From Paramacrobiotus metropolitanus (Eukaryota > Tardigrada > Eutardigrada > Parachela > Macrobiotidae), in the NCBI RefSeq assembly GCF_019649055.1, contig NW_026570247.1:496001-560000 (forward strand): a DNA stretch of 64,000 nucleotides, given 5' to 3'. The notes below the pieces were generated by a model. That model made no database searches. It worked only from the letters and a program-made list of their open reading frames with translations, and was not told the origin of the DNA. Both the position numbers and the translations under genes were made by a program. Below are positions 345 through 63,452 of this stretch, one piece after another (within the stretch, counting starts at the first letter, position 1; each line of letters opens with the position of its first letter).

Positions 345-1642
345 GTTGGGAAAACGACGCAGTGCAGCCGGCCGCCCACATCGGTCAGCTGACGCCGTGG
401 CTCATCAGCAACATCCTGGCACATCTGGATCTGCAATCACAAATGAGTGCCAAACGGTAAGCGTTATTGGAGGTCTTGCTCAGATCTGCGGAACTAACAG
501 AATGGTTTATCCCGAGTTGATCTAAGTCGGTGCAATGAGGTCACCAGTAGTCAGCTCCGGGGAAGAACTCTTGTGCGCCATTTGGTCGGACGATACCACC
601 AGGCAGAGCGGAAGTTGGGAAGAAAAGCGCGGCAGTTGTTCTTATGTTGGCTAATCTGCTGCTTAATACCGTCGCTCTTCCACAGGGTGTGCGCTCTGTG
701 GCAGTTGCTGTTGAGTAGTCCGCAGATGACAGAACACATCAGCATCAGCATGGAAAGCTGCTATTGGCTGCAGACGCACAGCAACAACTGCTTCAAACTG
801 GCGGCGCTGCTCTGCCGCTCGATCCATTCCACCACCATCAGCCTCACCTTCCTCAACGTCTTCCCGCCGATGTTCTGGCTGTTTATGAGGCCGTTGCTGA
901 AAATCCTGGGAATCCGACTGCCGTTGATTGTCTTCAAAGTATGCCAGATAGTCTCCGAGCGCGGGAACCAAACGGGCCTGAACGGACAGAGGGAGCAGCG
1001 GCTGAAGCACCCGGCAATAAATATCCCAACGGCGTGTAAGGACAACTGCGAAGTCGTGGCGCTGTTCAACTGGAGAGTGTGCGAACTGTTCGGCTCGGCC
1101 ATGCACGAACTGTTTCGGTTCTTAAGAACGGAAAGTTTCGGTGTCGTTCGCTGCTTGCTAGAACACGAGTTGGCGTTTATGAAGCACCTCTCGAGGGGGT
1201 CGCACGAACTGGCCATCGACAGAATGCCGATCCGCATTCCGCGGCTCCTCCTGCGATGCAGCGACGGCCGCATGCACATGACCAGTCGCTTCATGTGCGC
1301 CGTCAACGACTGCTTCCCGCCGGTCACCGCGGAGATGCTGGCAAAGGTCACGGCGGTACATGCGCGCTGGGTGCGGACTCTGGCCTATCCGGAGGACTGG
1401 CAGACCGTTCGCAACTACCTTCTGGTGTACGTAGTTTATGGCCAGTGTAATAAAACATCAGTCTAAATTGCGCGCTGCTCAGTTTCTTCGTAAGATCAAG
1501 TTCCCCCATGCTTTGTAGGTTTAACGGCTTCCATGCCGACGGCAGCCCGCGATCATGGGAGGATGTGGATTTACGGCTCGTGGACATCTCCACACTTAGC
1601 AAACTGGCCATCTATGGTATCAATGAAGTATTCGCTGTGTGA
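345..1642 (+). CDS. FMRP-like/F-box family gene, copy A (exons 2-4; exon 1 not seen)
   Basis: Three exons are supported by homology to four other copies here and by splice sites: 345-456, 686-1426 and 1519-1642, with phases that join. Exon 2 ends in the first half of an F-box (LTPWLISNIL, then a Leu-Asp segment). Exon 3 opens with the second half (VCALWQLLL), giving the F-box pattern L-P-x-x-L/I...VCxxW. F-box proteins normally bind Skp1 in SCF ubiquitin ligases. The rest of exon 3 is a family-specific region of about 230 residues ending MLAKVTAVHARWVRTLAYPE. Exon 4 (about 41 residues) ends LSKLAIYGINEVFAV and a TGA. The FMRP-like exon 1 of the other copies should lie within about 100 bp upstream if intron 1 is short, but 1-344 shows nothing like it. 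It is either beyond the left edge or lost. No frameshift is seen in these exons. Confidence 0.72.
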
Positions 1643-6925: not shown

Positions 6926-7395
6926 GCAAAATGGCAGTATACGCGATCAACGAGGTATTCCAAGCTGACCACTAAGCCTCACATGCAGTGCCGCATAAAA
7001 TTTTGGCATGATCGCATCCGGCTGGATGATTCGCCTGTTCGCCAGTTTACTAAAGGACGTTGTTCAGTGGGCTAGGAATTTACCGTGATATAATTAATTT
7101 GATGGCCATGAGCATCCCTATGGGTCAAGCTTTCTTTGGAAACTGTTGATCTGCTTCAGTAATGACCTCACCTTCACTAAGTAGCAATCGCTTTTGCCTC
7201 CCTTTGTTTAGCGATTAAGTTCAAGTACTTATTCAAGTTAGCCAATCAATATTCAACTTCCTGTTATTAAACGCACCCCCATCAGTTAGGAAATTAGATT
7301 TAAGGGATGATGATCATCTCCTTAGTCCTTACAGAACGATAATAGAGGCTGTATCAAGTTATCAACTCTGCGCTGACCGTAATGATTTCGTACAG

Positions 7396-8191
7396 AGTGT
7401 GTGCATTATGGCGCGAACTGGTGGACCGTCCCGGTACCAGGGAGCACATCCGCATACATTTGGACTGCATGATTCAAGAAACCACGTCGGACAACTACAA
7501 CTGCTTCCCAGTGGTCGCGCTGCTGACGCGCACCATCAGCGGCGCGACCAAAAGCCTGGACTATAATAGCGATTTCTCCCGGCGCGCGCAGAAATTCTGT
7601 TGTTTACCTGCTGCTGGCCCTGCAAACAACCCGGGAAGTGTTCGTGCCCATGATCGTATTGAAGAACTTTATTCTCGATAGCTACGACAAAAACAGGTCG
7701 GAGCATGTGTTCTGCGTGGAACATCCTTTGACGGAAGACGCAATAATGCTGCATCTCACTTGCCAGCGGATCCTACTGCACAATTGGAAGGTCAGCCGTC
7801 TTTTTGGCCGACCAACGTACGAAATTTTCATCGAGGCACGGTTAGCTTGGAGTTGGTGGACGTTGCAATCGCTGCCTTCACGGGAAAAGAATTAATGCGA
7901 CCTCTGGGTTGGGACCACGTACTGGCCGTCGATCAGCTCGAGATCAGGGTGCCGCGCGTCCTTCTCGACTGCCGCAGAGACCGGCCCGATATGGACGATG
8001 GGGAATGGCAGTGGTCCAACGAGGTGGCCAGTGGTATAGTCAGCCGCATCATGTGGGCCGTCAACGACAACTTCCCTCTGGTGACGGAGGGAATGCTGGC
8101 CAAGGTCACGGCTGTTTATGCGCGTTGGGTGCGCGACCTGGTTTATCCGTCAGAGTGGGACACCATCCGCTGCTATCCCATTTTAAAATAA
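7396..8191 (+). pseudogene. F-box family copy B, decayed exon 3
   Basis: An intact acceptor (TACAG at 7391-7395) leads into VCALWRELVDRPGTREHIRI, the second half of the F-box plus the family-specific region. The reading frame breaks twice relative to paralogues. Near 7559 an extra G shifts the frame (AAAAGCCTGgACT), after which YLLLALQTTREVFVPM continues. Near 7830-7850 it shifts again before ELVDVAIAAF and the conserved EGMLAKVTAVYARWVRDLVYP. The exon end lacks the usual GT donor and reads through to TAA. No exon 4 follows. This is likely a dead copy, more divergent than the others. Confidence 0.68.
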
Positions 8192-50984: not shown

Positions 50985-53900
50985 ATGGATTTGCCTGAAT
51001 CGCTACCGCTGCCGCGGTATCAGCCGCTACTGGTGGAGGCTAGCCAGATGAGCTACCAGAACACGGTGGCGGTTAAGAACGCCGACGACACCTGGTGGCT
51101 GGGATACATTCAGGATATTAACGGCGACCAGGCCTTCATCCACTTTGCCTCCACAACGGTCGCGCCGCGATGGATCCACATGGAAAATATCTGGCCGCTG
51201 CCGTTCTACTTGGAACCGGGAGGACCCTACCCCGATCAGCACCAGAAACTATACGTGGCCCTGCGCGATGAAGACGACGGACCCTTTCGCTTCCGACCCG
51301 CCCGATGGTTGCGCTGCCTCCATGGGTGTGAGGGCTCCTGCGGCATGTTCTATGTTACCACGCAACGGCGAGGTTCTATCGACAACGCTCACGCACCCTC
51401 CACCTGTTTTGAAATGGTGGACCGCGGTCAGGTCGCCGGTGTGTGGCCGCCCCCGGGTCCGCCGTTGTCGGAGCGACAGAATGCTCTGTTGTACACCAAA
51501 CACTGTATTCCCTTTCCTGAGGCGGAGAAGGTTCTCCGCGACGCCGCCGACCCATCCCGCATGATCAAGCATCTCCGCGACGCTGTGGAAACGTTTCCGT
51601 TTAACCGCTGTCGTTTTCACCTGCGCGTCCAGAAGGATGGTTGTACGTTTGTTCTGGCCGGTTCCGCCAGGGACGCGGAGACGGCGCAGATGACGGAGGC
51701 CACACTGGTGACAGTACTGCAGAAACACGTAACCAGCCGAGCGAATCTTCCACCCATCAGAGACCGCAACGGTTGGTCGCAGGAAGGCGGTCAGTATAAG
51801 TACTGGCCACTCAGTGAATGTAATAAATTATGTTTCATTCAGTCTTCGTGGCCCCGGGTTTGGAAAGCGATGCACTGATGGTGCCGGCACGAATCAGGGA
51901 ACTCACGCCGTGGCTCTTGAGCGATATCCTGTCCTACCTGGATATTCACTCCCAAATGAGAGCCAAAGGGTAAGACACACTTTGACGTTTTTCACAATCT
52001 GGACATTTTTTACTACATGGAGTTGGTTACCGAACCGAAGGCCAGAGACCAGAGACACGGTATCCTCCGCGTTGTTTCAAGAGCATTCCAAAAACTTATT
52101 TTAAATTCACCAGCAAAAGCAGACACCAGCTTTTCAGAAATTGAGATAAGTTGAGCGGCTGTTAAAAGAAATGCCGCAGCTGTTTTAGGAACTCTGAACG
52201 CGTATCCACAGAGCACGAGTAACACGAGCGATTTTCGTTAATTCTTCAATGTCTAAATGAATCATCTTAATCGTAATTAGTGTTCCATAGCGTAGGCATT
52301 TTATTACGTGTGGTGTCAACTGCCACATAAAAATTCCACGTCAAAGTTGATTACATGATAATTATTGTTTTTAAACAAGCTTATATCCGAGATTAATAAA
52401 AAATGTGGAACTCCAATTAATATTAATTCCAATGTGGAACAACGAAGAGAATACCGTGTCTTTGGCGTCCGGCAAGCGATTTCATATAGTAAAAGTGTCC
52501 AGAATGCTTAAAACATCGAAGTACGTGCAATATTTGTGATCGAACGTATGCTTGTTGGCAGTTGTTGCCTGACCAAATTACTCATGCGTATTTGCGATAG
52601 GGTTTGTGCATTGTGGCAGCATTTGCTGAACAGCGCGCACATGACTGAGCATGTTAGCATCTCCTTCGAAAGCTGTTATCAGCTGAAATCCGACAGCGGT
52701 AACTGCTTGAAAGCGGCTACTCTCCTGAATCGCTACATCACTTCCCACACCAAAAGCCTGACCGTGCTGCGATACCTCCCGGTCCACAACGTCACTTTCT
52801 TGTGGTACTGGTTGGAGGGCATGCAACAAAAATACCAGATGCAGCTACCATTCCTCGTCTTCAAAGACATGGTCCGCACCGCACCGGGATACATGCAGTG
52901 GTACGTCGAGCGGCCTCTCAAACATCCGGCCGCGCTCGACGCATTAAACTACAAGGATCTCTGTCACACCTTGGTGCTGTGCAACTGGACCGTAGGCGCC
53001 CTGTTCGGCCGGACAGCGTACGATGTCTTCGAGCGGAATCCGCATTGTCCGCCGCATCAGCGTCTGCGGGTCCGCGAGCGGGAACGGATGCTGCAACTCA
53101 CGCTGGAGGCGCACACACTGGACATTGACAAACTGCAGATCAGCATTCCGCGGCTGCTGGTGCGCTGCAGCGAACGCCGGACGCACGCCACCCCGCGCGT
53201 TATGCAGGCGCTGAGTGACTACTGCCCGCCGGTCACGGAGGAGATGCTGGCCAAGGTCACGGCGGTACATGCGCGCTGGGTACGCACGCTGGCGTATCCG
53301 GAGGAGTGGCAGGCCATTCGTCAGTACCTGGTCGTGTGAGTACAAGAACCATCGGCTTCAAGAACACGTTTCTTTTCAAATATCTTATTATAGCCGGTTG
53401 GGAAATTCTTCAGTCAAATCGCCTGTAATGAGTGCTCCTGTATCCACGCTGTATGCTAAAACGATGCTATTAAAGCATCTCAACTCGAATTGCTTATACA
53501 GCGCTTTCAGAGACCAAACGACTGTTCATGATGCGTGTCACGAAGCAGGTTTGATCGGTTAGCAGAACCGCGAAACACCAGTTCACTGTGCGGCCAGATC
53601 ACAGACCTGAATTTATTAGGACGTCCCGTACGAACAAAAGAAGAACAAGAATCAATATCCCGTTTGGAATTACAGTACATAGAAGGGACAGCCTCCGTCA
53701 TAAATGTGCGACAGTCATGCTGCGCTCATAGTGGTCAGAGCGGATAGCAACAACATGGGAAATCTTTCATACAGCATTCATCCGCTTTAACATTGTTTTT
53801 AAAACTGAATGGATTCTATGTGAATACACAGAATACAAAGCGCTTTCTTTCACTGCAAGGCTGTGTGTAGTCCACACCCCTGGTTTTCGCTTTGAGTGAA

Positions 53901-54344
53901 AAGTTTCCAAACAGGCTGTACAATCAAGCCCCTATGCTACGCTAGCTAAATGTCTTTGCGGCTGGAATTGCTGGCTCGCAGTCTCCAAGTCTATACTGTG
54001 GTGAATTCAGCTACGTCACTGCTTTAACCTCTGGGATACAGTACAGAAATGAAAGGAGGTCATAGGGTTCCAGTCAGTGGCGGTAAAATCGCCCTACTGA
54101 GTTGTGCCGAGTCTGCCGACCATCTCTACCCCGTTAAAGCGAAATTGCAGTACGAAACATTGCAGTATGCGAAACTGCAGTACGAAACATTTCGCTTTGT
54201 CCAGTTTTCTGAGAAGAGAACACTGCTAACGGAGGTCAGACTTGCATTGAAGTTGTGATTGCATTCAGGTTTAGCGGTTTCCACGCGGATGGAACATTGC
54301 ACATGTGGGACACCGTGGATTTGCGGCTGATGTGTCCACACTGA
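50985..54344 (+). CDS. FMRP-N-like/KH0-like/F-box protein, copy C (most complete)
   Basis: Exons: 50985-51789, 51843-51969, 52601-53335 and 54269-54344. Exon 1 (268 residues) starts MDLPESLPLPRYQPLL. Residues 25-72 (VAV...DDTWWLGYIQDI...FIHFAS...WIHMENIWPLP) resemble the second Agenet/Tudor domain of FMRP. Residues about 175-250 (IPFPEAEKVLRDA...CTFVLAGSARDAETAQ) resemble its KH0 domain. Exon 2 ends with the F-box start (LTPWLLSDILSYLDIHSQMR) and exon 3 resumes at VCALWQHLLN. Exon 3 is open throughout. In exon 4, four bases (CTGG) are missing against the sister copies at about 54329, so the frame ends early at TGA 54342-54344. The family's GINAVFR ending survives out of frame to 54388. Intron 3 is 933 bp. 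AATAAA is at 54716. Probable SCF substrate adaptor; ligand unknown. Confidence 0.8.
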
Positions 54345-54389
54345 GCCGACTGGCCGTCTACGGCATCAACGCAGTATTCCGTATATAAT

Positions 54390-55372
54390 GCATTCTGCCG
54401 GCGTTGGTCTCCTTCATGTTAACTGTTATCCTGACGTCGTCTGTAGCGGATGAAAAAACTGAATATGATTAGGAAAGGAGAAAATGGTAATACGAAAAAA
54501 CACATGGCTATGGGCTGTAATGGGTAAATAATGGGTTAGTGATCACTGCTTTATCGGAAACTGCTTCCTTGTTCCTAAAATGGCCATTTGTAAAGCTAAC
54601 CTTTTCCAGATTTGTTGTTTCCTTGCGATTACGTTTGTTTTTTTTCCGACGTTGTACGTACGGTATTTTCTTTTGTGTATTTATGTGGATAGTCACTCTA
54701 AAACGTAATGTACATAATAAAGAGCAACTGTATTACTATTTTATATTACAAGTTTTGCTGGTTTTAAAACAGACTGTTGTAACATAAATTATGAAACAAG
54801 ATGTCCTGTTCAAACCGCTCTAGTAGAAAAAGTGGAGCTGCGTGGGACTACGTCACTACACGTCAAAACCACAAGGGTTCAGTAAAGAACCAACCGATGA
54901 AAAAACGGTAGTCGGTGCAATACAACGTTTACGGATACTTCAATCTAAAACGCGCCCGATTGGCGCGCCTTTTATCGGTTTTTTCGTGCTTTCTATCGTA
55001 TTTTTGGAAAGAATATTGAATTCTCAACCGTGAAAAGGCAGAAAAGTTTTGTGGCGTGTGAAAAGAAAATGTTCACTCCGGCGGGAGAATCCTTTACCGG
55101 GCGCTGGTGCCTGTAAGACGGCAAATCTCTCTGCCGGTTCAAGAAAACGTCCGCCGTAAATTTTGCCCATCTGATTTTCTTCGCGCAGTTCAAATCGCAA
55201 AAGTATCTGGGTAAAGATTCTCACCCAGGCTGTTGTTATACCGAACTGTATGATATGACTGCCGGGCGGTTACTTTGAGCGAGAGCATTTTAATCAGTTT
55301 TGCATCCGGACGTTCATTGATCTAGTTGGTAGGTCCGTATGAGGAAATTTTGCCTAAGGTTTCCGGATATTT
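54390..55372. other. Spacer between F-box copies C and D
   Basis: Contains the likely polyA signal of copy C and, from about 55.08 kb, sequence duplicated upstream of copy E (compare 59.35-59.57 kb). No gene seen. Confidence 0.5.
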
Positions 55373-55563
55373 TATCAAGTTGTGAGCGGAGAAGCGGCTC
55401 ACTTACAGCGACAAAATCTTTGAAAGGATTTCAACGTATTGCGCCGTGGTACAGTGGTACTGCCTACGCGGATCTAACGACGTAGCCGGGGTTCGATTCC
55501 CCCATCGGCGCCTTTTTCAGCCGTTTCTCGGTTTCCCTCGGATTGCGCCCTGCTTAGAAAGTG
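55373..55563 (+). mobile_element. tRNA-like (SINE-like) unit upstream of copy D
   Basis: A roughly 190-bp unit contains a 72-nt tRNA-like segment (55441-55512): a Pol III A box TGGTACAGTGG at 55447-55457, a perfect B box GGTTCGATTCC at 55490-55500, GCGCCG...CGGCGC end complementarity, and a TTTTT stop at 55513-55517. The would-be anticodon arm (CTACG...CGTAG) has a 12-nt loop, so a standard tRNA is not obvious. The sister sequence upstream of copy E is uninterrupted at this spot (TCCGGATATTTTGTACATG at about 59571-59589), so the unit looks inserted. A second copy is at 59164-59345. Confidence 0.65.
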
Positions 55564-55785
55564 GTACATGCAGATCCGGTCATTAAGATGCGCTTGTGCC
55601 ACCTAGGCTAAACATCCGGTAATAAGTTTATCACCTACTCGTAGGTTAAAATGTCTGTATGAAGCGCAGTTTTTCTCTTCAGTGTAGCACTAGCATCCTG
55701 GCAGTTCGCAGTGAAATTTCAGCAAAGTTGATAATAATTCTCTTGATATTTGACACAAAATACTCAGGTGGTTTCTCACGCAACA

Positions 55786-58211
55786 GTGGATTCGCCTCAA
55801 GGAGCCATGCCGCCGTATCGACCGTTTCTGGTGGATGTCAACCAATTCAGCTACCAGAACACGGTGGCCATCCGCAACGCTGACGACACGTGGTGGCTGG
55901 GATACATTCAGGATATTAACAACGACCAGGCCCTCATTCACTTTGCCTCCACAACTGCCGCGCCGCGGTGGATCCATATGGGCAATGTCTGGTCGCTGCC
56001 GTGCTTCTGGGATCCTTCTGAAAATTTTGGCCATAACGAGAAATTACACGCGGCGCTACGTGATGAAGACGGCGGACCCTTCCGCTTCCGACCAGCCGCC
56101 CTGCTGCATCCCCTCATTGGTTGTAACGACTCCTGTCGAATGCTCAGCGTCACTACGCAGCGGCGGGACGTTCCCGGCCACGACCACCCGGTCACTTGTT
56201 GTGAGACGGTGGACCGCGGCCAAACGGCTGCGCACTGGCCGCCCCCGGTCCGCCGCTGCTGGAGCGTGACAGCGGTCTACTCTACACGCGACACTATATC
56301 TCCTTTCCCGAGGCGCAGATGGTTCTCAACGACGCCTCCGATAAATTCCGCATCATCAAGCATCTACGCGACGCTTTCAAACCGCGATCCGCATGGCCTA
56401 AATCGTTTGACCGTTGTCGCTTTCACCTCCGCGTCCTACAGGATGGTTGCGTGTTTGTAGTCGCTGGTTCCGCCCGGGACGCGGAGACGCTGCAGGCGAC
56501 GGAGGGGACGTTGTTGGGCGTGCTGCGGACACATTTAGCCAGCCGGGCCACTCTACCACCCATCCGATACCGAAACCTCCGCCCACTGGAAGAAGGTCAG
56601 TAACCGGGCCGTATGGTTTTTGGATTATGTGTAATTGATTTAAGAGTGATTGATGGTTTCAGGTTCAGAGAGCTGTGCTTGGCTAACGACTGCACGAATC
56701 GGTCAACTGACGCCGTGGCTCTTCAGCGATATTTTCTCCTATCTGGATATTCACTCCCAAATAGGATGCAGGCGGTAAGAGATAAAGCTACGAGAACCGA
56801 ACGCTTCAGCAGCGATATTCGACTAACTCTGGCTTGAGCTTCCGTCGTAATTCGTACGTTATACACGGAAAACGGAGTCTATATGCTCGCTTGCAGTGCT
56901 CGCCTATCGGGCTTGTAATCAGACTTGAGATGGGCTTGTAATACGGTCCGTTTCCTAATTTTGGGTTCAGACTTTAGAAGTGAAAACAAAGAGTGTGGCT
57001 CATGTGTATGCAGTCTTATAGAGAATGAGAACGTTTCGGCTCTGTGTGTGCAAATTACATAGTACAGAGTACATCCGTTCAAATTAAAAATCCGTTCAGA
57101 TTAGCCGTTTGTTGCGACAGGGTGTGCGCGCTGTGGCAGCAGCTGCTGAGCAGTGCCATCTTCGCTGAACATATCATCATGTCCTTTGAATGCTGTTGGA
57201 AGCTGCAGTCCGACAGCGACAACTGCTTCAAAGCAATCACTCTTCTGCACCGCTGCATCAGTGCCACCACCAAAAGTCTGACACTGCTGCAGTATCTCCC
57301 GCCCAACCACATCAGGTTCCTGTTCTTATGGCTGCACGCTATCACAATGCACTTCGACATCCAGGTGCCAGTGCCACGGCTCCACTTCAAAGACATAACG
57401 AGCGACACACCGGGAGGTGTTTCGTGGCCTGAACACGAGGAAGATGTTCCGAAGCATCCGGCAGCGGGGAGGCGCTGGTGTATAAGCACTTCTGCGATAC
57501 CCTGGTGCTGCACAATTGGACCGTCAGCGACCTCTTCGGTCGGAGCATGTACAATGTTTTCGAGATCGGGGATTCGTATGGTCCACCCCACCGTCTCCTG
57601 CGCGCTAAGGAGGGGGAGATGATGGCGCACCTAACGTGGGAGTCGCACGCCCTGGACATTGACAAAGTGCAGATCACCATTCCCCGGCTGCTGCTCCGCC
57701 GCGACCGGCGCAGGCGCATGGCGGCGCGGTTCATGCACGCCCTAAACGAACACTTCCCGCCGGTCACCGCCGACATGCTGGCCAAGGTCACGGCGGTGCA
57801 CGCGCGCTGGGTGCGCACACTGGATTATCCGGAGGACTGGGTCTCCATCGCAACTACATTTTACTGTGAGTACGAAGTGTAGCGGATGACAAAACCCAAC
57901 TGAGTACTTAATCAATAATCAGTGTTAATGATTATTTAATTAAACCAGAAAAAGTGTAAAAAATTTTAAATTTTCAAAATGTACCACGCTAAAATAAGAT
58001 GACTGAAACGTCCATCAAGTTGTAACTTGACTGAATGGTAACGCGCGAGGTCAGAGCTTGCATCTAACTATGTAGCTGTGCTTTCAGGTTCAGCGGTTTC
58101 CACGCGGACGGGACAGTGCACACGTGGGGCACGGAGGATCTGCGGCTGCTGGATGTGTTCACCCTCAGCAAACTGGCCATCTACGGCATCAACGCAGTAT
58201 TCCGTGTGTAA
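55786..58211 (+). pseudogene. FMRP-N-like/KH0-like/F-box family copy D, frameshifted
   Basis: Exons align at 55786-56595, 56663-56774, 57121-57865 and 58088-58211 with all splice sites intact. The family start codon is GTG at 55786; the next in-frame ATG is 55807 (MPPYRPFLVDVNQF). Three single-base losses break the frame against sisters: near 56240 (CCCCCGG-TCC), near 57462 (GCAGCGGGG-AGG) and near 57850 (ATC-GCAAC). Two are in G runs and might be assembly errors. Otherwise the Agenet-like WWLGYIQDI, the KH0-like CVFVVAGSARDAETLQ, the F-box and an intact exon 4 (GFHADGTVHTWG...GINAVFRV, TAA 58209-58211) are all kept. AATAAA lies at 58570. Either a recent pseudogene or a live gene with sequencing errors. 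Confidence 0.75.
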
Positions 58212-59163
58212 AGCGTTCGGCCAACTTGGTCTTATGCATGATAATCGTATCGACGCTTTCTGTAGTTGATGAATGAACTGAATCTGCGTTATTGGAGACA
58301 ACTTCCTGTGTTCCTGAAATCACCTTGTTAAGTGGTTTTTTTTTCGTTTTGTTTCCTTATGTTATTTTGTGCTTTACCTCACTACCACATTAATTTTATT
58401 TTTGTAATGTCATGTGTTTATGCTGATAGTGTCCCTAATATATAATGTACTGGCATTCATAAATATTGTATAAACTGTTAAAATTAATACGCTTCTCCAT
58501 TAATACGCTAAGGCTGAAATCCTGCATCGAAGGCTAAGTCAGGCTTCTCCTCTCCAGTTTTGTGGTACAAAATAAAGAGATCAGCACAGGTGTCTGTATT
58601 TTTTGTAGAATTACAATTCATGCTTGTACTGTAGCTGTACATGCAGTACGAAGTAATAAACGATAATTACTTACGAAATAATTTTTTCTTCGCCATTAGT
58701 TTAAAAAAAATATTGGACTCCAGTACTCGTCAGTCAGCACGGTGAGCCAGGTCCCATAAACAACTGCATTAAATTCGTGAACTTTCATTATTTTCCGGAA
58801 ACCCGGATAGATCGGTCACTTTTCGTGATGCAGAAAATGTGTTTGGAGTAAGAATTCTTACCTCTTACGAAATAATTTATTAAGGGATTTGGCCCGGTAC
58901 ATAGCACCAAAGGTTTGTTATTAGGTGTCAAAACCAGAAAGCTTCTTAGCAATCCATTCGGTAAAAAGCACCAAATTTTCGAAAAAACATTTGCTGTTGT
59001 CGGCACAATATAAATTTTATGGCTATCTAAGACGCCTAGACTGGCCATAAAATGTGCGTGTGATCGAAGGGAAAGAAATCTTGCCTTCAAAAACGCGAAA
59101 AGGTTGATTAAGAGGAGTTACGTGTCTTGAGAAAGAAAAACGTTGAAGCCTGCGCCTTTAAGA
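58212..59163. other. Spacer between F-box copies D and E
   Basis: 3' flank of copy D, then AT-rich DNA with no supportable gene. Confidence 0.5.
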
Positions 59164-59345
59164 TGGTGTGAGGAGAGAAGCGGCTCACGTACAGCGACAA
59201 AATCTTTCAAATGATTTCAACGTATTGCGCCGTGGTGCAGTGGTACTGCCTACGCGGATCTAACGACGCAGCCGGGGTTCGATTCCCCCATCGGCCCGTT
59301 TTTTAGCCGTTTCTCGGTTTCCCTCGGATTGCGCCCTGCTTAGAA
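59164..59345 (+). mobile_element. tRNA-like (SINE-like) unit upstream of copy E
   Basis: Second copy of the unit at 55373-55563. It keeps TGGTGCAGTGG (A box) and GGTTCGATTCC (B box) and a TTTTTT stop at 59299-59304. The 3' end reads CGGCCCG, which weakens pairing with the 5' GCGCCG. Here it lies upstream of the duplicated block rather than inside it. Confidence 0.6.
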
Positions 59346-59780
59346 TGGGAAGCCGCCGCTAGTTCCAAAAAACGTTCAGCGTAAATTTGCCCATCCGCTT
59401 CTGGTCGCACAATTCGAATCCTTGGGTATTCTCACCCGGACGGTTCTTCCGGGCTACATACTAGGTTTGCCGGGTGGTTAGTTCGAGAGAGAGTATTTTA
59501 GTAAATTTGTACCCAGACGTTTCTTGATCCAGGTTGCAGATTTGTATCCGCAAAGTTTGCCTGGGGTGCATCCGGATATTTTGTACATGTGGGTCCGGTC
59601 GTTTCCACCAGTTAGGCTAAACATCCGCGTACGAATTTACCACCTAGGTCAAGATGTCAAGAAACAATTTTTCTTCAGTGTAACACTTGCCTCCTGGCAG
59701 TTTTCAGCAAACTTCACAAAAGTTATTAAATAATTCTACCGAAATTTGATGTAAATAATCCGAGGGTAATTTAGGCAATT

Positions 59781-62700
59781 ATGGATTCGCCTCAAGGAGC
59801 CATGCCGCGGTATAAGCCGCTATTGGCGCATGCCAACCAGATGAGCTACCAGAACACGGTCGCGGTTAAAAGCGATGACGAAACTTGGTGGCTGGGTTAC
59901 CTTCAGGATATTAACGGCGACCAGAATAACCGACCGACGGCGACCTTCAGGATATTAACGGCGAGTGGATGAAGGCCTCTTCATCCACTTTGCCTCCACA
60001 ACGGTTGAAGCGCGCTGGATCCACATGGGCAGTATCTGGCCGCTGCCGTTCTACTGGGACCGGGATGGACATCCCACCGACCTCCGCGATGAGCTGTGCG
60101 TGGCACTGCGCGATGTAGACGACGGACCTTTTCGTTTCCGACCCGTCAGAAAGCTGCGTTACCTCTATGGTTGTGAGTGCTCCTGCGGAATTTTCAACGT
60201 CACAGCGCAACGGCCCGATTCTCCCGACGACGATCTCCCACCACCCACCGCCTTTGAAATGGTGGACCGCGGTCAGGTCGCCGGTGTGTGGCCACCCACG
60301 GGTCCGCCGCTGCTGGCGCGTGATAGCGGGCTGCTGTTCACCCGACATTATATCCCCTTTCCCGGGACAGAGAATGCAATTCTCAGCGACGCATCCGATA
60401 AATTCCGCATCATCAAGCATCTGCGCGACGCTTTCAAATCGGCATCCGAAAACCTTAGATCCTTTGACCGCTGCCGTTTTCACCTGCGCGTCCAGAAGGA
60501 TGGCTGCGTGTTTGTAATCGCTGGTTCCGCTCGGGACGCGGAGACGCTGCAGGCGACCGAGGGGACGTTATTGGACGTGCTGCGGACACATTTAGCCAAC
60601 CGGGATAGTCTTCCATCCATCCGATATCGAAAGCTCCGCCCAGACGAAGACGGTCAGAAAACGGGCCGTAAAGCGAAATAAATTATATATATTCTTTAAT
60701 TAAGACCTAAACGGTGATTTATGGCTTCAGGTTCGGCGGGCGACGCATTGCTGACGACTGCACGCATCGGCCAACTGACGCCGTGGCTCCTCAGCGATAT
60801 CTTGTCCAATTTGGATCTTCACTCCCAAATGAGATCCAAGCGGTAAGAAATATAGCTACGAGAGGCGAACGCGGTAACAGTTACATTCCATAAACTTTGA
60901 CTGCAATTCTGCTCCAGTGCTTTGCTTTCATCTGCTACGGTAGTCCCTATCACGACGTCATCGCGGTCAACTAGGATGACGTCATGGCTTTGTACAGCAC
61001 TAGCACAGTGGCTTGAGCGCGTTACGTAAGCTCCACCCAAAGTGACCAGCCGGCCATTTCTTTAGTCATTAGATTTAGTGGTTTTAAACACTAACCGAAT
61101 CCAGAGTTAAGCTCCGATCGGAAGACACCGCTATGTCCGATAAAATCCCATGTTTTCATCGGAAAAAGCAGTACCGGGAAAGTTTTTATCGTATCGTAAT
61201 CGATGGGCATAGTTGTTTACCGGCATACTCTTAATCGTAGCCAGATTTTTATCCGATGGCACAAAAAGGTTTTGATTTCTGATATTTTTTACTAATTTTT
61301 AAGCAAGAAGTAAACCACAAACCACGTAGATTTTGGCGCTGCGCGCCATAACGAGACTTTGTAATTAAACACGGGCTCTTTTCGGTCGTGATTCACCTGC
61401 AGTCTCTATTCCTAACCAGCCGAGCTGGGCCTAGACTCTGACTCTGACTCTGATTCTGACCACTCAAACTCTGACTCTGACTAGTCAAAGTCTGACTCTG
61501 ACCGCTCAAAGTCTGACTCTGACTCTGAAGGTTTCTTAGGTTTCTTAGGTTTCTTAGGTTTCTTAGGTTTCTTAGGTTTCTTAGGTTTCTTAGGTTTCTT
61601 AGTTTTCTTAGGTTTCTTAGGTTTCTTAGTTTTCTTAGGTTTCTTAGGTTTCTTAGGTTTCTTAGGTTTCTTAAGTTATTCTTAGGTTATTCAGTCAGAG
61701 TCAGAGTCAGAGTTCGGACGGTCAGAGTCAGACTTTGAGTAGTCAGAGTCAGAGTTTGAGCGGTCAGAGTCTGAGTCAGAGTCAGAGCTTGAGCGCGGGC
61801 CTGCGAGCTGCGCTCTGATCTGCCAATGCCCGCTGTGGTGCATTTTTCCTAGAATTTGTTTAACCACATTATATACTTATGGGCTGCCGTTGTTGCGACA
61901 GCGTGTGCGCGCTGTGGCAGCTGCTACTGAACAGCGCCCCCATAACGGAACACATCAGGATATCCTTTGAAAGCTGTTGGCAGCTGCAGTCCGACAGCGA
62001 TAACTGCTTCAAAGCAATCATTCTCCTCAGCCGCTCCATCAGTGCCAGCACCCAGAGTCTGACGATACTGCAGTTTCTCCCGTCCAACCACATCTTTCTC
62101 CTGTTCTCATGGATGGACATTATGGCCATTCACTACGAAATGCGGGTGCCAATGCTCCTTTTCAAAGACATACCTTGCGACAACAGACTGACAGGTGTTT
62201 CGTGGTCCGCCCTACACGAGGAAGATCTGCTGAAACATCCGGCAGCCGACGAAGCGCTGGTGTATAAACACTTCTGCGACACCCTGCTGCTGCACAACTG
62301 GACCGTCAGCGGTCTCTTCGGTCGCACCATGTACGATGTTTTCGAGAGGGGGGATCCGTCTACACACGATCGTCTACTGCGTGCCAGGGAAGGGGAAATG
62401 ATGGCGCACCTAACGTGGGAGTCGCACACCCTGGATATTGACAAAGTGCAGATCACCATTCCCCGGCTGCTTCTCCACCGTGACCAGCGCACGCGCATGG
62501 CGGCGCGGTTAATGCACGCCGTGAACGAACGCTTCCCACCGGTTACCGCGGACATGCTGGCCAAGGTCACGGCGGTGCATGCGCGCTGGGTGCGCACACT
62601 GGATTATCCGGAGGATTGGGAATCCATTCACAACTACCTTTTACTGTGAGTACGACGACCGAGTGAGCGTACTCGATCGCCAATGCAGTCATTTCGCCGA

Positions 62701-63452
62701 GTAGAGCTTTGCTGAATGCCCGTAGAGACATCCATCATGGTCTATGCATAAGTAGTCCCTGAACTGCCGTAAATTCAAGCGTAACGGATTTTCTGAAAGG
62801 TGGTCGGGGAAAGGCCGGATACGTCAACATACAGTATGACACAGAGCGTATGCCAATTTTAATGCACATACAGTGATACACAGTATTACACACTGCGTAT
62901 GTTATAGCGTCTGATTCTTCCCGACCACCTATTAGGAAATCAGTTGCGCTTGCTTTACGGTAAATTCGGTCCAGATCAGGGACTGCATATGAACAGACCT
63001 TGCATCCATGGTTAGATGGTTACGTAAATATTAGAGAGCCAAATAACTATGGATTAAAGGTCATCAGCGTAGCAGTGGGCTTTTTGACGAAGTGCAGAGC
63101 GGCAAGTACATAAGGGCCAGAGTAAAGGTGTTCTACCGTTACCCTGTACTGCTGCCGTCACCCGTCTGGAGTGTGACGTTACGTCAGTACAAGCTTGTCG
63201 ACAAGTTGAGCAAGTAAAGGTACAGGTGGGCACTGTAGAGTGATATCAGCGCGAAGTTGGCGCTTGAATAATAGACAGGTTAAGTTGTCCTTTTGGCTGA
63301 TTTAACGTAAGTACCACCTGCGCTTCAGGTTCAGCAGTTTCCACGCGGACGGGACACTGCACACGTGGGACACGGAGGATCTGCGGCTGCTGGATGTGTC
63401 CACCCTCAGCAAACTGGCTATCCACGGCATCAACGCAGTATTCCGTGTTTAA
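59781..63452 (+). CDS. FMRP-N-like/KH0-like/F-box family copy E, exon 1 disrupted
   Basis: Exons 59781-60652, 60731-60842, 61902-62645 and 63329-63452 have intact splice sites and phases. Exon 1 starts MDSPQGAMPRYKPLL and has the Agenet-like WWLGYLQDI. A 52-bp insertion at about 59925-59979 then shifts the frame and brings a stop at 59968-59970. Past it the frame is open again (LFIHFASTTVEARWIHMGS...) to the end of exon 1, including KH0-like DGCVFVIAGSARDAETLQ. Exons 2-4 are intact: an F-box split across LTPWLLSDILSNLDLHS and VCALWQLLLN, then a long conserved region, then LSKLAIHGINAVFRV and TAA. Translation from a later ATG (e.g. 60024) would lose the Agenet-like part. Introns 2 and 3 hold a giant hairpin and a MITE-like element. 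Confidence 0.77.
61430..61807. repeat. Hairpin with (GGTTTCTTA)n loop in copy E intron 2
   Basis: The left arm (about 61430-61529) is rich in GACTCT with CTAGTCAAAG and CCGCTCAAAG interruptions. The right arm (about 61694-61807) is its reverse complement with the interruptions in mirror order. Between them runs a 9-bp tandem repeat, GGTTTCTTA, about 17 units with few variants. Confidence 0.93.
62742..62995. mobile_element. MITE-like inverted-repeat element in copy E intron 3
   Basis: Left arm TAGTCCCTGAACTG, TGAAAGGTGGTCGGGG; the right arm is the diverged reverse complement (CCCGACCACCTATTAGG, CAGATCAGGGACTGCATA). Arms of roughly 80-90 bp enclose an ATACAGT/ACACAGTAT-rich middle. No coding capacity. 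Ends and target duplication are not certain. Confidence 0.7.

Follow-up and report, generated by a model that had tools for sequence, protein, structure and literature searches.

The genome of the tardigrade Paramacrobiotus metropolitanus encodes a very large gene family in which a module homologous to the N-terminus of the fragile X proteins FMRP and FXR, i.e., Tudor 1, Tudor 2 and a KH0-like domain, is fused to an F-box. Three copies of this family (C, D and E) lie at 50985–63452 on the forward strand of the window, by which we mean the whole stretch of 64,000 nucleotides analyzed (positions 496001–560000 of one contig, NW_026570247.1), and their relatives were sought across the 169.8-Mb assembly (533 contigs). 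The three copies follow a common plan of four exons, of which exon 1 encodes ~268 amino acids and exons 2 and 4 are short; the F-box is encoded by exon 2 plus the start of exon 3 and is followed by the remaining exon 3. We interpret the family, with a probability of about 0.62, as a lineage-specific repertoire of adaptors for SCF (Skp1-Cul1-F-box) ubiquitin ligases that carry an FMRP-derived substrate reader.

Homology to FMRP/FXR was clearest for the first domain of exon 1. A profile of 47 exon-1 copies of the copy-C subfamily (A1), searched against 177,635 PDB sequences, matched FXR1, FXR2 and FMRP better than any other entry (E = 0.0091, 0.019 and 0.62), on FMRP Tudor 1, while profile-profile comparison of the A1 Tudor 1 with FMRP Tudor 1 scored 85.8% (E = 5.4e-6, with 0/60 shuffles as high). 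As far as sequence comparison goes, we consider the Tudor 1 assignment firm. An earlier note on this DNA had aligned the WWLGYIQDI segment with the second Tudor domain; this has to be revised, as the profile of that segment reached FMRP Tudor 2 at E = 0.003 vs. 5.4e-6 for Tudor 1, and Tudor 2 of copy C is instead the VALRDEDDGPFRFRP... segment. For a second subfamily, in which the gene is contained in a single exon (profile A5), the match to the FMRP profile scored 97.1% overall (E = 5.1e-11, with 0/60 column shuffles as high) and 55.6% for Tudor 2 (E = 1.2e-4). By eye, F32 of FMRP aligns with F54 of copy C, a position occupied by Phe in 46/47 copies, and 13 of 19 members of the single-exon subfamily have Trp at the position resembling Y96. 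At the structure level, an AlphaFold2 model of exon 1, built from five rows of window copies only, showed an order of strands and helices that fits Tudor, Tudor and KH, with strand-helix-helix-strand-strand-helix in the KH-like part. Foldseek ranked FMRP N-terminal structures 1–5 among 350,542 chains for this model (E = 4.2e-4 to 6.2e-3, 230–247 columns), and the single KH domains 1we8, 5www and 1zzi came at ranks 20, 23 and 31.

The family could also be linked to the genome's own FMR1 (L011), which matches FMRP in PDB at E = 1.5e-35 and is the one true FMR1 in the genome by Pfam KH_9, with no other copy. In these linking searches (set search size of 20,000), a profile built from family members alone, seeded with locus L076 and with no FMR1 in training, reached the FMR1 at E = 1.5e-5 and then 2.1e-9. 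Another, seeded with L106 (28 rows, neither FMR1 nor any copy-C locus), reached it at E = 6.9e-12, with a match spanning FMR1 residues 5–183, which comprise both Tudor domains and the greater part of KH0. Among 200 shuffles and the reversed frames, none matched at E ≤ 10 for the L106 seed or at 0.1 for the L076 seed. The L106 route led on to copy C at E = 2.3e-13, with L001–L010 and L013–L052 absent from training and L059, 34% identical to copy C, included in it. Conversely, a profile of three sequences restricted to FMRP recovered L106 (E = 6e-9), L081 (9e-7) and L070 (4.9e-4). Among the matches listed for this FMRP-only profile, 40 besides FMR1 scored above the sole reversed decoy, which had E = 4.8. 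Of the 40, 22 had E < 0.01 and 39 are Tudor exons, the exception being L015 (E = 4.4) on the wrong strand.

The F-box was identified most directly in relatives whose gene is not interrupted. A search of the genome with Pfam Tudor_FRX1 yielded FMR1 and 26 weaker places, 20 of which were retrieved; L070 combines Tudor_FRX1 (E = 0.1) with an F-box over the Pfam cut-off in one 467-amino acid open frame. Among 20 loci picked by similarity to L070, five (L073–L077) likewise have an F-box over the cut-off, preceded in the same open frame by a stretch alignable to the Tudor module of the family, although Pfam names no Tudor domain there. Having been chosen by Tudor or L070 similarity, these six relatives document the existence of the architecture in one uninterrupted frame, not its frequency. 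A further locus, L053, exceeds the Tudor_FRX1 (PF18336) cut-off (30.5 vs. 25.9 bits), the F-box not having been looked for there. In copy C, all four exons can be spliced in frame into a protein of 580 amino acids, for which the only Pfam families at E ≤ 1 are F-box-like (E = 0.0067) and F-box (E = 0.028). The suggestion that exons 2 and 3 encode an F-box is supported by the relatives and agrees with the best families of spliced copy C. None of the 41 KH_1 matches at E ≤ 0.001 fell on the contig of the window, Pfam scans of copy C gave no KH1/KH2, and no RGG was seen by eye in its 580 residues, as had been noted before.

Several results weigh against these assignments. The copy-C subfamily alone did no better against FMRP than shuffles for Tudor 2 (14/60 as high) and KH0 (9/60), so that these two assignments in copy C rest on relatives and fold comparison; of the FMRP-N-terminus-like module proposed in the earlier note, Tudor 1 is strongly supported. 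The comparison of A1 with one FMR1 sequence in hhalign reached only E = 0.1, and the A5 search of PDB placed ribosomal uL24m (E = 0.0012–0.0076) above FMRP/FXR (0.013–0.17). The exon-1 model is poor (mean predicted local distance difference test score, pLDDT, of 36.8), and template modeling (TM) scores at Foldseek ranks 1–5 are low (0.15–0.30), i.e., the argument is one of ranking and not of superposition. The FMRP-only profile scored L073–L075 at 0.3–1.1, put L077 below the decoy and did not have L076 among the matches listed, so that L070 alone of the six single-frame relatives is well reached. Finally, the F-box of copy C itself is sub-threshold (F-box-like, 16.6 vs. 24.3 bits). Single sequences were also uninformative: phmmer with one exon-1 sequence gave 0 matches in PDB at E ≤ 10, and Pfam found nothing useful on the copy C exons, including no Tudor_FRX1 match for copy C alone. 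Across the 47 exon-1 copies, Pfam reported 21 families, each in ≤4 members and mostly weak, among them LexA (E = 0.0012, one member) and, both with a best E of 0.0018, Tudor_4 (4/47) and Tudor_FRX1 (3/47).

The matches to these two Tudor families, together with uL24m at the head of the A5 list, would favor the view that exon 1 is unrelated to FMRP, being a tandem Tudor/Agenet domain of generic type or another domain of SH3-like fold, and that its match to FMRP reflects convergence within the Royal-family fold. We find this explanation improbable: the three best A1 matches in all of the PDB sequences were FXR1, FXR2 and FMRP, the match continues through Tudor 1 and Tudor 2 into KH0 in the same order, and the family is recovered by a profile that contains FMRP only.

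Next, we considered the joining of exon 1 to the F-box exons. At E ≤ 1, the exon-1 profile matched the 64-kb window solely at the three exon-1 stretches of copies C, D and E (Table 1), and it gave no match in three unrelated loci or in L096. GT-AG sites flank exons 2, 3 and 4 in all three copies (read by eye in D and E), bearing out where the genes had originally been placed; in copy C the splice phases agree and the reading stays open through exons 1–3. Within the 24 whole-gene loci examined, the exon-2 motif lay at the equivalent position in 24/24, each with GGT next at the same place, and it scored above the reverse strand and 20 shuffles in 23/24, L021 being the failure. Among the listed places, 107/139 exon-1 places had an exon 3 on the same strand ≤8 kb downstream, compared to 24 upstream on the same strand, 2 downstream on the opposite strand and 5 upstream on the opposite strand. 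For exon 3 within ≤1 kb, the corresponding numbers were 40 downstream on the same strand vs. 0, 0 and 0. The remaining 32/139 listed exon-1 places, with no exon 3 ≤8 kb downstream, would suit two separate neighbor genes that were duplicated together and are never spliced to each other. This is very hard to reconcile with the single open frames of L070 and L073–L077, the phase-matched GT-AG sites of copy C and the constant donor place behind the exon-2 motif in 24/24 loci, and we regard it as extremely unlikely; the proposed joining of exon 1 to an F-box stands.

The expansion is genome-wide and very large. The exon-1 protein matched at least 148 places in the genome (142 of 770 candidates scored); for the exon-3 protein there were at least 151 (150 of 706 candidates scored). 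Merging of pieces among those listed (148 and 150) left at least 139 exon-1 and at least 147 exon-3 places. The former, from the copy-C subfamily alone and with broken ones counted in, are spread over 54 contigs; the view that the family had expanded locally was thus right about expansion and too narrow about its extent. A survey starting from the F-box gave a similar picture for well-scoring F-box hits, the only ones it represents: of 12 hits, sampled from the best 150 of 997 candidates at intervals of roughly twelve rows between rows 3 and 137, 11 had a Tudor module 214–1970 bp upstream on the same strand (nine at E = 7e-8 or better; L102 and L103 weaker at 1.5e-4 and 6.2e-4), and one, L096, had no Tudor module. 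Reversed frames of the 12 loci gave no Tudor-module match. The 997 were first-look candidates for the F-box-like model across the genome, and many of the best 150 listed are clustered.

We then estimated selection from the ratio of non-synonymous to synonymous substitution rates (dN/dS) in pairs with dS of 0.05–1, one of 123 exon-1 pairs being dropped for dS < 0.05. The median dN/dS was 0.39 for exon 1 (0/122 pairs > 1) and 0.37 for exon 3 (0/46 pairs > 1), with no sign of gene-wide positive selection in these 122 and 46 pairs. Given the kept splice sites, the exon-2 motif and these ratios, the copy exons are coding sequences under constraint and not chance occurrences.

F-boxes are Skp1-docking motifs, and Skp1 is present in the genome (4 matches over cut-off). 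Instead of serving SCF ligases, the F-box could nonetheless have a non-SCF role, in a family that acts as a scaffold for ribonucleoproteins (RNPs) or chromatin and evolves under relaxed selection with many pseudogenes. Copies D, E and B are broken, several other family copies contain in-frame stops, and the 4 Skp1 matches give no picture of a large Skp1 expansion, all of which this explanation would accommodate. The low dN/dS of exons 1 and 3 and the F-box over the Pfam cut-off in the single-frame relatives speak against it, and we hold the scaffold alternative to be unlikely. The frame breaks of the window copies affect exon 1 of D and of E and also exon 3 of D, and those in D and E may stem from assembly error.

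Table 1 Features of the FMRP-F-box family in the window, and the FMR1 of the genome.
Feature	Position	Strand	Remarks
Copy C exon 1	50985..51789	+	Tudor 1 ~24-76, Tudor 2 ~86-157, KH0-like ~166-258 (residues); donor at 51790
Copy C exon 2	51843..51969	+	F-box first half, ELTPWLLSDILSYLDIHSQMRAK
Copy C exon 3	52601..53335	+	F-box second half (VCALWQ...) and C-terminal domain, no fold match
Copy C exon 4	54269..54344	+	Terminates before the end reached by exon 4 of D or E
Copy D exon 1	55783..56600	+	Two frames, break near 56205-56244
Copy D exon 2	56663..56774	+	F-box first half; read by eye
Copy D exon 3	57121..57865	+	Two frames (57029-57619, 57433-57879); ends by eye
Copy D exon 4	58088..58211	+	
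Copy E exon 1	59778..60678	+	Two frames, break near 59929-59969 next to a short repetitive segment
Copy E exon 2	60731..60842	+	F-box first half; read by eye
Copy E exon 3	61902..62645	+	Ends by eye
Copy E exon 4	63329..63452	+	
Copy A, further exon 3	Open frame 498..1463, family match ~681-1427	+	Exon 1 outside window
Copy B, broken exon 3	7346..8188	+	Three frames; no exon 1 in window
Own FMR1 (L011)	Contig C5, around 3433000-3434000	-	Single 630-amino acid open frame

Outside the recognizable modules, the predicted model of exon 3 (pLDDT 48) matched no known fold at E ≤ 0.001, the top match reaching E = 0.064. In the single-exon subfamily (L074–L092), a long region after the F-box carries an LPC(D) motif that recurs between members, and gave no Pfam match in the five members scanned. 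Two repeats accompany the window copies. A 189-bp repeat, 93% identical between 55371–55559 and 59157–59345, lies upstream of copies D and E and includes a stretch that appears tRNA-like by eye, possibly a short interspersed nuclear element; ARAGORN called no tRNA anywhere in the window. At 61436–61787, within intron 2 of copy E, inverted 93-nt arms of 21-bp repeats surround a 9-bp AGGTTTCTT array.

Under the favored interpretation, each intact gene would provide an F-box adaptor of an SCF ubiquitin ligase, whose N-terminal part, a descendant of that of FMRP/FXR with its two Tudor domains and KH0, would read the substrate while the central F-box would dock on Skp1 and the divergent C-terminal domain would add specificity or structure. 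The reader, devoid of KH1/KH2 and RGG, would have been fused to an F-box, presumably in a single or few events, and then multiplied into the present family. Residues 1–200 of FMRP reportedly bind FXR1, FXR2, LSM14A, EWSR1, PLK1, DDX5, FUS and BAIAP2L1, and binding of LSM14A, EWSR1, DDX5 and FUS is sensitive to F32L and/or Y96L (PMC5430443). Some alphavirus nsP3 proteins bind the Agenet-like domains of FXR (PMC13285845), and work on Caenorhabditis proposes that its expanded F-box families recognize foreign proteins (PMC8665587). From the F-box, the presence of Skp1, these partners of FMRP and the Caenorhabditis parallels, we therefore infer a substrate-reading adaptor that would assemble into SCF and direct ubiquitination of its ligand. 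The likeliest ligands would be methylated or RGG-bearing messenger RNP proteins, or foreign proteins using FXR Tudor domains, because such proteins are known partners of the FMRP/FXR N-terminus. The reading of RNA or methyl ligands that the earlier note suggested is likewise conjecture. A bolder version, in which the FMRP N-terminus would act as the variable reader of an SCF surveillance repertoire, strikes us as doubtful: through its Tudor-Tudor-KH0 surface, each member would bind a target of its own, whether RNP-associated, viral or encoded by a transposon, and have it degraded, so that a translational regulator would have given rise to a cell-intrinsic defense. Any immune use of the family is speculation.

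The family supplies a wealth of naturally occurring versions of the fragile X N-terminus with which the binding partners of its surfaces could be mapped. Should the adaptor interpretation hold, it would also show that ubiquitin adaptors have expanded in a novel form beyond nematodes and plants, and would make the family a candidate for proteolysis of an immune-like or stress-linked type in tardigrades. No description of such a family was found in those parts of the tardigrade, F-box, fragile X and Agenet literature that our searches covered.

Among known systems, the N-terminal module of FMRP/FXR (PDB 4ova, 4qvz, 4qw2) is one of the closest, sharing Phe at the F32 methyl-pocket position and the order Tudor 1-Tudor 2-KH0, as judged for the last two domains from relatives and fold comparison; to our knowledge, this module is known only in FMRP/FXR proteins. 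The family differs in that no KH1/KH2 or RGG was found, the F-box comes next, the family is very large and identity is low. Coupling of a KH domain to ubiquitin-ligase function recalls MEX-3C, an RNA-binding (KH) E3 ubiquitin ligase (PDB 5www). The ligase part of MEX-3C is a RING and not an F-box, and we know of no FMRP Tudor domains in it nor of its being an expanded family. No GxxG was seen by eye in the KH0-like domain of copy C, in keeping with FMRP KH0, which lacks GxxG (PMC9603430). With the Caenorhabditis F-box families (PMC8665587), the present family shares massive, lineage-specific expansion of F-box adaptors. There, however, FTH or FBA2 follows the F-box (PMC8665587), whereas here Tudor-Tudor-KH0 precedes it and neither FTH nor FBA2 gave a Pfam match at E ≤ 1 in exon 3, spliced copy C or L073–L077. 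The tardigrade family thus combines known parts in a new way, and does so on a very large scale.

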